Shown here piece by piece: positions 468-4,716 of a stretch of 5,216 bases of DNA. The notes beneath the pieces are model-generated. The model had not been told where the DNA came from, did not search any database, and saw only the letters and a list, made by a program, of their open reading frames with translations. The position numbers and the translations under genes are program-made. Source of the DNA: Pseudomonadota bacterium (GTDB taxonomy: Bacteria; Bdellovibrionota_C; UBA2361; OMIW01); the NCBI GenBank assembly GCA_900299205.1, contig OMIW01000140.1, forward strand, positions 1 to 5,216, given 5' to 3'. Position 1 is the stretch's first letter, and each line of letters begins with the position of its first letter.

Positions 468-1232
468 CTAAGAGCCCTCGCTCCCTCTTTTCGTAAACGC
501 CTTGAGAAACTCAATCGGCAACGGAAAGAGAATCGTTGAGTTTTTATCAACGGAGATATCGCGCAGCGTCTCGAGGTATCGAAGCTGGATCGTCGTATCG
601 TTTCTGCTCATGATCTCAGCGGCAGCGGTCAGCTTCTCTGCTGCCTGATGCTCCCCCTCGGCCTTAATGATCTTTGCCCGACGCTCCCGCTCAGCCTCGG
701 CCTGCCGCGCCATCGCCCGTTGCATATCCTGTGGCAGATCGATGTCTCGGATCTCTACAATTGACACCTTCACACCCCACGCCGCTGTCTGATGATCGAG
801 GATATCCTGGATCCGTCCGTTGATCTCTTCCCGCTTCGCGAGTAGCTCATCAAGCTCAACCTGTCCACAAACACTTCTCAGCGTCGTTTGCGCGAGGCGA
901 CTCGTGAGCGCCAGATAGCTGTCGACATTTACCACTGCAGCGACCGGATCCATTACTTTGAATGCAAGAATCGCACTTACTTTAACCGAGATGTTGTCTT
1001 TGGTGATAACGTCCTGTTGAGGAACATCATAGTTGATCGTTCGCTGATCAACCATAACAATGCGGTCAACAAAGGGAAGGATAAATCGCAGACCCGGTCC
1101 CTTTACTGGACCAAGCCGTCCCAACCGAAATATCACCCCCGACTCATACTGATTAATGACCCGTATCATCACCTTGCCGAGCGCGAACAAGACAACGGCT
1201 ATTGGAACTATTCCCGGTAAAAAAGCACCCAT
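468..1232 (-). CDS. slipin (stomatin-like band 7/SPFH membrane protein)
   Basis: This is a complete 254-residue membrane-anchored SPFH/band 7 protein of the bacterial slipin type, a usual length for the family. Residues 7-25 form one hydrophobic anchor. The SPFH domain follows, with YESGVIFRLGR (29-39), GPGL near 45 and VDQRT (61-65), then PQQDVITKDN (71-80) and DPVAAVVNVDSY (95-106). Further landmarks are the WGVKV block (152-156) and LPQDMQRAMARQAEAERE (166-183). The charged helix that ends in AEGE-QAAEKL is the expected coiled coil for oligomerisation. The C-terminal NSTILFPLPIEFL (231-243) is the hydrophobic tail found in stomatins. In Pyrococcus, the NfeD-type protease cleaves the corresponding C-terminal hydrophobic part of its stomatin partner; that this happens here is inference. 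The start is fixed by an AAAGGTGGG ribosome site inside the end of nfeD and by a TAATG overlap with the nfeD stop. The stop TAG runs into a G9 tract. Confidence 0.96.
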   Translation of the reverse strand: MGAFLPGIVPIAVVLFALGKVMIRVINQYESGVIFRLGRLGPVKGPGLRFILPFVDRIVMVDQRTINYDVPQQDVITKDNISVKVSAILAFKVMDPVAAVVNVDSYLALTSRLAQTTLRSVCGQVELDELLAKREEINGRIQDILDHQTAAWGVKVSIVEIRDIDLPQDMQRAMARQAEAERERRAKIIKAEGEHQAAEKLTAAAEIMSRNDTTIQLRYLETLRDISVDKNSTILFPLPIEFLKAFTKRGSEGS

Positions 1233-2680
1233 TACCCACCTTTCTTGACAATCAACACATTACCCTCGTGCGAAGCGACAATAACTCTGTCGCCGACCTG
1301 AAACTCCTCTCCCTCAGAGGCAGAAGCAAGCCACAACTCGCCCCGTACCCGGACCCGACACCCTCTTCCCCGCGCCTCAACCACCTCGCCTGATTGTCCC
1401 GTTAATGCCCCAAATCCCACCGATGGCCGCTGGCGACGGGTCGCTGCGATCTTCCAACCGATCGTGAGAACTATCCCAGCTAGCACCAGTAGTGCGGGCG
1501 CAATCGCTGAATAGGCCACAAACAGGTCAGGGGCCTGAGCCACGTCAATAAGGGTGAGAGCGCCAAGAGCTATCGCGATAATACCACCAACCGCCAACGC
1601 CCCCGAAGGCACGATTATCTCGAGGGCAAGTAGCAGGCCACCCGCGACGAGAAAGGTCACCCCCATCGCCGTGATGGGAATCACTTCGGAGACACTTAAC
1701 GCCGCCAAGAGACAGAGCAAACCCACAACCCCGGGAAGTATCAATCCAGGATTGTATATCTCGACCCCGAGCCCCGCCGAGGCGCCGACCCAGAGGAGCG
1801 CAATCACGCTTGGGTTCGCGAGCACATTCACAACCCGCCCCCGGAGCGACAATTCCTCAACGGTAACGGGAAGGGCGGAATAATCCTCAAGCACGGTCGT
1901 TCCCGCAGCGGTCTTTATGGTACGTCCGGCGATTTGTCGGAGCAACTCCGCCCGTGATGTGGCAACAAGATCGACGACGCTAAGGGTAGCTGCCTCGGAC
2001 GCGGTCGCCGAAGCGCTCTCTTTGACCGCCTTTTCAGCCCACTCTGCATTTCTGCCCCGCTCATTGGCGATGGAGCGCACCATACTGAGCGTTGCATTCT
2101 CTATCTTTGCCCGCATATCCCCTTCGACGTTCTCTCCCTGTCCTCCGACGGGATGAGCTGCACCAATAGTGGTACCCGGTGCCATCGCCGCGACATGAGC
2201 CGCCATCGTCACAAAGAGCCCCGCCGAAGTAGCAGTTCCTCCTGCTGGTGATACGTAAACAACTACCGGCACCCGCGATGTCAAGAGCGTTTGCACGATT
2301 GCCTGGGTTGAGGTGAGCATTCCGCCGGGCGTTGAGAGCTCGATAATGACAAGTTTTGCTCCCGACGACTCGGCCGATCGGACAGCTCCCTCTATAAGAT
2401 GGGCCGTGCCGGGAAGGATCAACATATCGGTGGGGATGACCACGATGTGGCCGGAGGATACACGAGATGGGGTGGCATCTGTTTTCCCCGTCCCCTCCCG
2501 TGCGGTGGTGATTGTGGGTATGGGGAGGGTAGGTGACTGCGCCAGAGCAACCGAGGGAATTGAACTCATCCCAAAGACACACGCACTTACTACCGCGAGC
2601 AAGACGGCACGCGGCATGTGCGAACTTCGCAGAATCCGCCCGCCAAATATCGCACTTAGGTGCTTCACCGTAAGATACAT
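1232..2680 (-). CDS. nfeD: long-form NfeD, membrane-bound ClpP-class serine protease
   Basis: The product is an exported or membrane-bound protease of the NfeD1b (long) class, 482 residues from the chosen start. A signal sequence (about 22-47) has a hydrophobic core and ends SVALA before QSP. A ClpP/SppA-like protease domain follows, with STPGG (116-120) and the nucleophile Ser about 152 in TATSAG. Next come AAHVAAMAPGTTIGAAHPV and Lys about 192 in MRAKIEN, matching the Ser/Lys dyad known from Pyrococcus PH1510. RGRNAEWAEKAV and a VVDLVA segment continue the fold. About five hydrophobic helices lie between 286 and 410, and a soluble OB-fold NfeD domain (about 425-482, GQSGEVVEARG through VGDRVIV) ends the protein. 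The start at 2680 is preferred because GGAG lies six bases upstream. An in-frame ATG at 2725 (497 residues, 18 bases after the previous stop, poor ribosome site), GTG at 2692 and ATG at 2617 (just before the signal peptide) are alternatives. Its likely partner is the overlapping slipin. Confidence 0.94.
   Translation of the reverse strand: MYLTVKHLSAIFGGRILRSSHMPRAVLLAVVSACVFGMSSIPSVALAQSPTLPIPTITTAREGTGKTDATPSRVSSGHIVVIPTDMLILPGTAHLIEGAVRSAESSGAKLVIIELSTPGGMLTSTQAIVQTLLTSRVPVVVYVSPAGGTATSAGLFVTMAAHVAAMAPGTTIGAAHPVGGQGENVEGDMRAKIENATLSMVRSIANERGRNAEWAEKAVKESASATASEAATLSVVDLVATSRAELLRQIAGRTIKTAAGTTVLEDYSALPVTVEELSLRGRVVNVLANPSVIALLWVGASAGLGVEIYNPGLILPGVVGLLCLLAALSVSEVIPITAMGVTFLVAGGLLLALEIIVPSGALAVGGIIAIALGALTLIDVAQAPDLFVAYSAIAPALLVLAGIVLTIGWKIAATRRQRPSVGFGALTGQSGEVVEARGRGCRVRVRGELWLASASEGEEFQVGDRVIVASHEGNVLIVKKGG
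1235..1243 (-). promoter_or_regulatory. slipin ribosome binding site inside nfeD 3' end
   Basis: Minus-strand AAAGGTGGG lies in the last codons of nfeD, directly before TAATG, where the nfeD stop TAA and the slipin ATG share one base. This layout favours translational coupling (termination-reinitiation) and suggests a fixed protein ratio for the protease/slipin pair. Confidence 0.7.
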
Positions 2681-2686
2681 ACGCAG

Positions 2687-2690
2687 CTCC
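2687..2690 (-). promoter_or_regulatory. ribosome binding site supporting the 2680 start of nfeD
   Basis: GGAG on the minus strand lies six bases before ATG at 2680-2678. The upstream in-frame ATG at 2725 is preceded by GGGTGTCGACTATTC, which has no good Shine-Dalgarno match. A GAGGGGGAG stretch between the two starts sits about 10 bases before an in-frame GTG at 2692, so initiation there is also possible. Confidence 0.45.
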
Positions 2691-2743
2691 ACAAAGCGTG
2701 AACTCCCCCTCAGAGAAGTGTTCATGAATAGTCGACACCCAAC

Positions 2744-3241
2744 TCACCCCTCATCTCTGAGCAGCCTTTGCAAATCCCCCCAGAACCGTCGCTTTGCCTC
2801 GCGCGACTGACGCGCCTCGGCAAGCGAAACCGTCGAAATGATGTCAGATCCCTGCATTTGATCACCAGCCGGGCTCTTCACATTCACCGAACCACACACG
2901 ACAACTGGCACGCCGGATGGTGAGTCTCGCTGCTTATCCGCCGTCAGAATGACGATTTCCTCCCATCTCCACCTGAGCCCCTGCGCGACCGCTCGCATCA
3001 GAAAATCGCGATCATCATCATCGATAGGTGCTGATACGACAAACACAGCACGGATGACGGATTCTCCCTGTAACTCCGCCACCTCCCGCTCCTCAATAAC
3101 ATCGTGCTCCGGCACCTTACGAGTGGCATTTATCGCCGCGGCGAAGAGTGCCCGAGGCACACCGTTAGGATACCATCGTCGCGCGATCACCTCGATAGTT
3201 CTGAGGAGTTCAGTTCTCGATAGGGTAACCTCTGCGACCAT
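2744..3241 (-). CDS. UDG-like protein lacking catalytic and Fe-S motifs (divergent family 4 uracil-DNA glycosylase relative)
   Basis: This complete 165-residue soluble protein appears to descend from family 4 uracil-DNA glycosylases but should be inactive as one. An N-terminal helix (8-22, SRTELLRTIEVIARR) precedes a strand, IRAVFVVSAP (63-72), at the place of UDG motif 1 (normally GEAPG or GEGPG). DRDFLMRAVAQGLRWRWEEI (78-96) then VILT matches the family's LL-ML-A-GL-R-EVYITN block, and VPVVVCGS (111-118) matches the P-VIV-LG strand. TVSLAEA (137-143) stands where HPA of motif 2 should be, and the end, KRRFWGDLQRLLR (150-162), closely resembles the family's KR-VWEDL C-terminal helix. Only one cysteine is present, so the four-Cys 4Fe-4S site is gone. 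The start is secure: AGGA lies six bases upstream and an in-frame TAA lies two codons before the ATG. It sits between coaBC and nfeD. The psi (HolD)-like pattern is an alternative reading. The function is unknown; the homology is by eye only. Confidence 0.9.
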   Translation of the reverse strand: MVAEVTLSRTELLRTIEVIARRWYPNGVPRALFAAAINATRKVPEHDVIEEREVAELQGESVIRAVFVVSAPIDDDDRDFLMRAVAQGLRWRWEEIVILTADKQRDSPSGVPVVVCGSVNVKSPAGDQMQGSDIISTVSLAEARQSREAKRRFWGDLQRLLRDEG

Positions 3242-3330
3242 TCTTTATCCTGAGAATTCCTTTCCTCCGAGCTGTTTCCGCCCGGTCCTCCTCTCCCTCC
3301 AATAGGCGCGGAACGGAGTGATGTTTGCTT
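3242..3330 (-). promoter_or_regulatory. purine-rich leader with orphan Shine-Dalgarno-like motifs
   Basis: This gap between the coaBC stop and the UDG-like gene has minus-strand GGAGGG (3300-3295), AGGAGG (3292-3287) and GGAGGA (3268-3263). None of them is followed at normal spacing by ATG, GTG or TTG. The working ribosome site is the weaker AGGA at 3251-3248. No terminator or clear promoter is seen, so read-through from coaBC is likely. Confidence 0.5.
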
Positions 3331-4611
3331 TTAATTTGGACCGAGCATCTCCGCAAGTCTTTCCATGATAACTCCCGATACCGCTCTCTTGGTACCCTCA
3401 ACCCGCCTGCTTTGGGTATCCGTTCCAGCCACCAGATACGCAACCGTCGTGTCACGATCAAACGCATCATCTCCTCGATTGCCCACCAAAAGATCCACCC
3501 CTTTTGCCCGCCGCTTCCGCTGGAACTCGCTGATAAGCTCAGCTCCATGAGGGATTGTTTCAACGGCGAATCCAATCAGAAGAGGACTCCGCGCTCCCCC
3601 TCGACGACGAGATAGGCTCGCCAGTATGTCGGGGTTCTGCTCGAGCACGAGCGAGCAGGTTTCACCATCGTCGCCTCCCCGCTTGTGCTTTTCCGACAGC
3701 ATCACCGCCGGTCGGTAATCAGCGACCGCCGCAGCCATCACAACCGCTGATACCGAGGGCGAACTATGCCACACAACCATATCGAGCGCGTCGGCCATAT
3801 CTCGGGCAGATTCAATCTCGATAGCCCGATGCAGACCGTAGGGCAACGGCACTGACAGTGGACCGTGAACCGCTGTGACAATCGCACCCCGCGCCCTCGC
3901 AGCCTCAATAATCGCGCACCCCATCTTTCCTGACGACCGATTTGAGATGTAACGGACGGGATCAATTCGTTCGCGAGTCGGCCCCAAAGCCACCACGATA
4001 TGGTGCCCTGCGAGCGTCTGAGGGGTCCCTACCTCCCGAATCTTTCCCACTATCGCATCGACTTCAGCCAGCCGACCTGCTCCCTCCCATCCACACGCAA
4101 GAGAGCCCTCGGAGGGTCCGACAAAGATCACCCCCCGGTCGCGAAGCACCGTAATATGCTCCTGGTTCGGAACACTTCCCCACATGTGACAATTCATAGC
4201 GGGAGCAACTATAATCGGGCAACGCGCGGCGAGCACCGTCGCAAGTAACGGCGTGTCAGCGATCCCAAGCCGCATCTTAGCGAGACAATCGGCCGTCGCA
4301 GGAGCAATAATCAGACAATCTGCCCAGTCCCCCCACGAGATGTGCTCGATCTCAACTTTTTCGGGATCGCTCCCCCCCACGTCCGAGTCCCAAAACTCCC
4401 CCATGCACCGCGTGCCAGTGAGCGCTTCAAAGAGTGCAGGCCCAACAATCTGTCGGGCGGCGTGGGTAACTATCACCCGAACCTCACATCCATCATCCTG
4501 CAATCGGCGCACTATTTCTGGAGCTTTGTATGCAGCTATCGACCCCGTCACACCGAGAAGGACGCGACGGCGAGACCGGGGCGAGATTTCTTTGAGGGGA
4601 ATAGATGTCAT
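3331..4611 (-). CDS. coaBC: bifunctional phosphopantothenoylcysteine decarboxylase / phosphopantothenate-cysteine ligase
   Basis: CoaBC carries out two cytosolic steps of coenzyme A synthesis: it ligates 4'-phosphopantothenate to cysteine (CoaB, C-terminal half) and decarboxylates the product with FMN (CoaC, N-terminal half). The 426-residue protein is close to the E. coli length. The CoaC half has GSIAAYK (23-29), the active-site His90 in IEHISWGDWAD, PAMNCHMW (137-144) and the flap Cys173 in SLACGWEGAGR. The CoaB half has GPTRERIDPVRYISNRSSGKMG (210-231) with Asn224, AAAVADY (293-299), and the lysines of SEKHK (306-310). NPDIL (326-330), GFAVET (347-352) and a KGVDLLVGN segment (370-378) complete it. 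Every key motif is intact. The ATG at 4611 is chosen because the frame continues upstream to 4704 only with a Cys/Trp-rich stretch unlike the family; the ribosome site (GGACC about 11 bases upstream) is weak. The gene lies 105 bases after the hydrolase and 89 before the UDG-like gene. Confidence 0.97.
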   Translation of the reverse strand: MTSIPLKEISPRSRRRVLLGVTGSIAAYKAPEIVRRLQDDGCEVRVIVTHAARQIVGPALFEALTGTRCMGEFWDSDVGGSDPEKVEIEHISWGDWADCLIIAPATADCLAKMRLGIADTPLLATVLAARCPIIVAPAMNCHMWGSVPNQEHITVLRDRGVIFVGPSEGSLACGWEGAGRLAEVDAIVGKIREVGTPQTLAGHHIVVALGPTRERIDPVRYISNRSSGKMGCAIIEAARARGAIVTAVHGPLSVPLPYGLHRAIEIESARDMADALDMVVWHSSPSVSAVVMAAAVADYRPAVMLSEKHKRGGDDGETCSLVLEQNPDILASLSRRRGGARSPLLIGFAVETIPHGAELISEFQRKRRAKGVDLLVGNRGDDAFDRDTTVAYLVAGTDTQSRRVEGTKRAVSGVIMERLAEMLGPN

Positions 4612-4716
4612 GCAGATTTTGGTCCAGCACGAGAGGTTCGGGGAGCCATTGCAAAGTGCCACCCAGCGGTGTACCCGTTTGCATACTGAGCATACGGCCC
4701 GCACGAAAGGAACGGC
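4612..4716 (-). other. spacer between hydrolase and coaBC
   Basis: This 105-base gap shows no RNA gene, terminator or strong promoter. A GTATGC TCA GTATGC direct repeat is present on the minus strand near the hydrolase end (about 4698-4684). The coaBC frame is open through much of it from an ATG at 4704, but the encoded peptide is unlike known CoaC N-termini. Confidence 0.4.

Follow-up and report, generated by a model that had tools for sequence, protein, structure and literature searches.

A degenerate orthologue of family 4 uracil-DNA glycosylase at the coaBC-nfeD junction and its parallel with the clamp-loader subunit psi

What is the small protein encoded between coaBC and nfeD, and why would it be kept if it descends from a repair enzyme that has lost its active site? 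The window analysed here is one entire contig of 5,216 nucleotides from a draft genome of 2.45 Mb in 206 contigs. Its MBL-fold hydrolase, coaBC, the gene in question, NfeD1b and the SPFH protein lie on the minus strand throughout (Table 1), and an MBL-fold hydrolase also stands upstream of coaBC in most relatives. The true start of coaBC probably lies inside its ORF, near MTSIPLKEIS. The original prediction held that the junction gene encodes a pseudo-enzyme derived from family 4 uracil-DNA glycosylase (UDG4) and is intact, with a well-placed ribosome site. The gene is indeed intact: its uninterrupted 165-aa frame starts with ATG, is preceded by AGGA at the expected place and encodes a single Cys.

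Taken alone, the window protein gives no significant hit to Pfam, NCBIfam or PDB sequences, and a PDB sequence search with either the single protein or alignment A2 returned nothing. The window holds no Rfam RNA family. Matches of the protein to Pfam DUF4862 (E 0.003, below cut-off) and to Adeno_PV were rejected as chance, since each concerns a single member and is absent from the orthologues.

Table 1. Features of the window, with positions counted from its first letter
Feature	Position	Strand	Basis
Degenerate family 4 UDG orthologue, 165 aa	2744..3241	(-)	ORF, orthologues, fold
AGGA, probable ribosome-binding site, 6 bases 5' of ATG	3248..3251	(-)	sequence read
N-terminal element Y24-P-N-G-V-P29	3155..3172	(-)	comparison of degenerate and canonical proteins
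VSAPI, residues 69-73, at the site of the GE[AG]PG catalytic motif	3023..3037	(-)	alignment
VSLA, residues 138-141, at the site of the HPA motif	2819..2830	(-)	alignment
C-terminal helix K150-RRFWGDLQRL-L161, counterpart of UDG4 AK-R-P-F-W-E-D-L	2759..2794	(-)	alignment
coaBC, upstream neighbour, synteny anchor	3331..4704	(-)	TIGR00521 E 9e-103
NfeD1b (ClpP-like + NfeD), downstream neighbour, synteny anchor	1232..2725	(-)	PF25145, PF24961, PF01957
SPFH/Band 7 protein, NfeD partner	468..1232	(-)	PF01145 E 9e-45
MBL-fold hydrolase, truncated by contig end	4717..5214	(-)	PF00753

Distant matches in genomes of the same order came from a protein search of 96 genomes and lay between coaBC and nfeD or spfh; a CoaBC-based locus search of genome contigs gave distant relatives only. 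When profile A1, built from nine same-order orthologues, was run against 45 genomes of the class, the gene turned up in 22 genomes of the order, its own included. A twenty-third copy, at the G002 junction, has 128 aa and is more diverged (YSYGVPK ... ISKRRFWNLLKEL). Of the 24 order genomes in which the junction is readable or the gene was found, 23 carry the gene. The exception, G004, has lost it cleanly, with coaBC and nfeD overlapping by four bases (L111 2709-2712), so the gene is not universally needed. The contig or fetched stretch stops short of the junction in G022 and G023, and profile searches found neither the gene nor a coaBC match in G012 and G024. Within family f11 (L033, L035, L042-L045, L049), the fetched flank shows no full-length nfeD ORF after the gene; the gap of ~400 bases between the gene and spfh perhaps holds a short NfeD without the ClpP-like domain.

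In sister orders, profile A1 lands on canonical UDG4 (E about 1e-8 to 1e-13). Those loci score 118-135 bits for PF03167, encode proteins with GE[AG]PGA-EED, KCRPP, CxxC and HPAY, and, in nearly all fetched stretches, adjoin coaBC and/or nfeD at this junction. Intermediates occur within the order itself. The copy in G006 reads FIGEVPGALPTEPFRGPGGELL, that is, GEVPG, and lacks both the Fe-S ligands and HPA; that in G005 shares 39% identity with a canonical sister and, at 25.5 bits, exceeds the PF03167 cut-off; that in G014 passes PF03167 at 26.3 bits. NCBIfam UDG_fam4 matches 11 of the 14 proteins in a set made up of intermediates and canonical forms, a count that includes the last row (G036) of alignment A3, whose N-terminus is misspelt. 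When the 15 most degenerate proteins were compared by hhalign with 11 canonical ones, the result was 98.0% (E 2e-13); the controls coaBC, NfeD and SPFH gave 0.35% or less. The window family scores 88 with the canonical UDG4 of its own class, 55 with psi and 37 with gammaproteobacterial UDG4. The predicted origin is confirmed by a shared locus with the canonical UDG4 of sister orders, by the graded intermediates, by profile comparison and by the fold search described below: the gene is a vertically inherited descendant of the UDG4 that stands between coaBC and nfeD in the class.

The catalytic motifs have not survived this descent. Alignment with canonical UDG4s places VSAPI at GE[AG]PG and VSLA at HPA and leaves the CxxC region missing, as had been read from the single sequence. 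G[EQ]xPG is kept in 1/22 degenerate order members and CRPP in 0/22, and the sole HP[AS] match among the 22 sits elsewhere in the protein; each of these motifs (HPA or HPS for the last) is found in 11/11 canonical sisters. All 11 sisters also have the four Cys ligands of the 4Fe-4S cluster, whereas the window protein, with one Cys and the CxxC region deleted, has lost them as proposed. Apart from that one G[EQ]xPG copy, the motif loss is shared by the orthologues collected in the order. The only other PF03167 match in the same genome is a family 1 UNG with GQDPYHG. From these motifs we infer that the window protein has no uracil-excision activity, and by membership it is, on its sequence, not a family 4 UDG enzyme.

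Other parts of the protein are conserved. The frame is intact in 23 order genomes, whose proteins share roughly 20-25% identity with that of the window, so the disrupted frames that would have spoken for decay are absent. About 4% of random substitutions in the window gene would make a stop, so that a gene drifting without constraint would by now have been interrupted repeatedly. Six residues are invariant in the orthologues (G27, P29, G117, K150, W154 and L157), and the kept parts are an N-terminal (Y)P-x-G-[IV]-P, an LL..KGLKL helix, one strand glycine and a C-terminal K-R-x-F-W-x-x-L helix. An N-terminal G-[IVLM]-P is found in 22/22 degenerate proteins and in 7/11 canonical sisters, where shuffling of the first 60 residues gives expectations of 1.4 and 0.4, respectively. 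Its presence already in canonical sisters suggests that this element probably predates the loss of catalysis. Among nine species of one genus (36 pairs), dN is below dS in 36/36 pairs, with dN/dS of 0.32 and 0.40 in the least saturated ones. This is in line with purifying selection, but the test is a weak one and the ratios are rough because synonymous sites are saturated in most pairs. Compared with coaBC next door, the gene has a dN about 1.6 to 2.5 times as high in most of the closest pairs. The intact frames, the invariant residues and dN below dS indicate that the gene is maintained, as predicted, though fast-evolving.

What fold does the protein keep? An AlphaFold2 model of the window protein, made from 15 degenerate sequences only, with no UDG included (pLDDT 79), was searched against 350,542 PDB chains. 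The top five Foldseek matches are family 4 UDG of Sulfolobus tokodaii (4zby, 4zbx) and E. coli psi (1em8_D, 1em8_B, 3sxu_B), with E 2e-3 to 8e-3; 4zby has E 2e-3 and 1em8_D E 3e-3, and the next match is a flavodoxin at 0.07. A structural aligner gave Z 10.7 for 4zbx (rmsd 2.2, 105 residues) and Z 9.7 for 3sxu_B (97 residues), followed by other family 4 UDGs at about 9, UdgX at about 8.5 and the first unrelated entry at 6.9. A likeness to psi (HolD) had been part of the original prediction, and for the fold it holds: the only outstanding PDB matches of the model are psi and family 4 UDG, its real neighbours, and not the unrelated fold that would have spoken against it. By this predicted model, the UDG fold is preserved.

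So, is the window protein a psi? Compared by hhalign, the window family and psi give 95.6% (E 1e-8), and the Pfam psi family matches 6/15 degenerate members (best E 0.0019), whereas Pfam UDG matches 0/15. The PF03603 cut-off is not reached, with no match for the window protein and 18.9 bits for the best orthologue against the 22.2 required. The clamp-loader peptide L-x-x-M-G-I-x-x-W occurs in 0/22 degenerate orthologues, and a profile of the window-family N-terminus fails to find 3gli_O. Profile comparison of that N-terminus with psi or UDG4 is not significant, so no claim is made from it. HolC (chi) exceeds the cut-off in 0/45 class genomes. By membership the window protein is outside the psi family, though psi is its closest resemblance.

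Loss of the catalytic motifs goes along with the presence of another glycosylase. Family 1 UNG was found in 19/23 genomes with the degenerate gene vs 1/13 with canonical UDG4 (Fisher 1.6e-5, uncorrected for shared ancestry), a correlation that may rest on very few events. In G005, with the least degenerate in-order copy, UNG was not found; this genome is 85% complete.

A similar arrangement appears in Gammaproteobacteria, where 143 genomes, the class of a Sutterella genome, were searched (psi loci L074-L079, UDG4 loci L080-L109). Psi genes occur in 6/143 genomes, and a rimI-type acetyltransferase adjoins five of them in the fetched stretches. UDG4 is encoded in 115/143 genomes and in 0/6 of those with psi (Fisher 3.5e-5); a rimI-like ORF lies in the fetched flanks of 24/30 best UDG4 loci, mostly as the immediate neighbour. 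UNG is present in 10/115 UDG4-positive vs 25/28 UDG4-negative genomes and in five of the six psi genomes, the exception being G133. Psi and UDG4 exclude each other, and psi seems to take the place of rimI-linked UDG4 in Gammaproteobacteria that have UNG. The named control genomes show both states: E. coli has chi, psi and UNG and no UDG4; Caulobacter has chi and UDG4, with the psi match absent.

The sequences of psi and gammaproteobacterial UDG4 are also alike (hhalign 98.9%, E 1e-17), and psi scores 114 with gammaproteobacterial UDG4 and 48 with that of the window class. One psi (L077) matches PF03603 and, below cut-off, PF03167. The likeness extends to the first 32 residues, where UDG4 (consensus YLxAMGIxxWxxR) and psi give 97.6% (E 4e-12), and the best two matches of a UDG4 N-termini profile in the whole PDB are both the clamp-loader-bound psi peptide, as 3gli_O (E 0.02) and 9oyg_J (E 0.028). 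By this comparison, rimI-linked UDG4s carry the clamp-loader peptide of psi. The AlphaFold model of gammaproteobacterial psi, of low confidence (pLDDT 60), was left out of the fold search. From these comparisons, psi itself looks like a degenerate UDG4, and psi and the window family look like independent degenerate families. A psi-UDG connection was not found in the literature searched, which covered few subscription titles, so the novelty of the link is unproven.

Set beside known systems, the window protein shares with family 4 UDG (TIGR00758 / PF03167; solved as 4zby, 1ui0 and 1vk2) the fold, the order of elements, the C-terminal AK-R-x-F-W-x-D-L helix, the LL..AI..G helix, the N-terminal G-[IV]-P element and the coaBC-nfeD position seen in sister orders. 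Unlike that enzyme it lacks the 4Fe-4S cysteines, GEAPG and HPA and has ~165 aa rather than ~220-285. With psi/HolD (PF03603; 1em8, 3sxu, N-terminal peptide 3gli) it has in common the fold, a similar size, a retained N-terminal element, LL and the C-terminal K..W, and psi too, on the evidence here, appears to be a UDG-like protein without catalysis, encoded mostly in genomes that have UNG. The two differ in that psi is rimI-linked, carries the L-x-x-M-G-I-x-x-W clamp-loader peptide and has chi as partner, whereas the window family is coaBC-linked and carries YPxGIP, with chi not found. In UdgX, which cross-links to uracil DNA, the Fe-S ligands are retained, together with an R/H motif and a motif of GEQPG type; UDG-fold proteins can thus be tuned for binding uracil DNA instead of turnover. 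The window protein resembles UdgX in the UDG fold (Z about 8.5 to the model) and differs in having none of these ligands and motifs.

On balance, we lean towards reading the window protein as a non-catalytic UDG4 descendant, most likely a psi-like protein-protein adaptor at the replication fork. With uracil excision taken over by family 1 UNG, the ancestor of the gene would have lost catalysis, and the protein would have retained a second, older job carried by the N-terminal element and the fold. That job would most likely be that of a protein-protein adaptor at the replication fork, as psi is in the DNA polymerase III clamp loader; it is placed at the replisome because of the parallel with psi. 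By this analogy the polymerase-accessory role suggested in the original prediction would fit, and a clamp-loader partner is a candidate. Three observations count against a place at the replisome: chi is absent from the class, the window family lacks a psi-type peptide, and G004 does without the gene. From the same UDG4 origin, a non-catalytic DNA- or uracil-binding protein could have arisen instead, acting as a sensor or glycosylase regulator and not as a clamp-loader adaptor. The UDG fold retained in the predicted model and the precedent of UdgX, tuned for binding, are consistent with this, but the uracil pocket and the DNA-contacting motifs (GEAPG, HPA) are lost, and the best-kept part is the N-terminal element, which lies outside them; we consider such a binder unlikely, though deserving of some weight.

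Departure from DNA metabolism altogether, to become a partner of the NfeD/SPFH membrane complex or of CoaBC, seems less probable still. CoaBC and nfeD/spfh are constant neighbours on one strand with short gaps, but canonical UDG4 occupied the same neighbourhood before degeneration, so that the neighbourhood is uninformative on the new role, and family f11 keeps the gene with no full-length nfeD ORF after it in the fetched flank. A functionless relic, slowly decaying under relaxed selection, would account for a dN above the coaBC value in most of the closest pairs and for the one clean loss in G004; given frames intact in 23 genomes at such low identity despite the share of stop-creating substitutions, invariant residues that persist and dN below dS in all 36 pairs, we regard it as very improbable. 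That an unrelated alpha/beta protein came to resemble UDG and psi by convergence is barely credible: the window sequence alone has no significant family match, but syntenic orthology with canonical UDG4 and the graded intermediates refute it.

Should the adaptor reading extend beyond this order, UDG4 of many bacteria would be both a glycosylase and a clamp-loader or replisome subunit, acting in the latter through its N-terminal element. Takeover by UNG would then have led to psi-type decay at least twice, giving rimI-linked HolD/psi in Gammaproteobacteria and the coaBC-linked gene in the window order, and alpha- and betaproteobacteria that have chi but seem to lack psi would have it in the form of their UDG4. 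We offer this extension tentatively, and would sooner doubt than assert it. Chi is known from alpha-, beta- and gammaproteobacteria and psi from gamma only (PMC3290774, PMC3197488), a distribution that an origin of psi from UDG4 would explain, if true; in bacteria with chi, UDG4 may be the psi that has seemed to be missing. Uracil repair would in that case be physically located at the replication fork. The comparison points to family 4 UDG as the origin of the clamp-loader subunit psi, and in the window order the intermediates and fixed synteny document how a repair enzyme became a probably non-catalytic protein as a replacement enzyme arrived.

Other UDG genes of these genomes show further patterns. 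UNG and family 4 UDG are nearly mutually exclusive in both the window class (45 genomes) and the class of G096 (143 genomes). A strong PF03167 match in G024 was considered as a canonical in-order UDG4 and rejected; it is UdgX-like instead (GEQAGDEED, KHFKW...GNRRLHQKP; L118 2414-3109), with coaBC and nfeD not found beside it. In a sister order, the junction UDG4 of G039 (L062 1501-1881) is independently degenerate, with GESLEHGEA, NPAF and no Fe-S cysteines; UNG was not found in this genome, and its congener G042 keeps a canonical UDG4. Finally, a UDG-like stretch in G009 (C127 182-621, L128) contains in-frame TGA and TAG and is perhaps a broken glycosylase gene.
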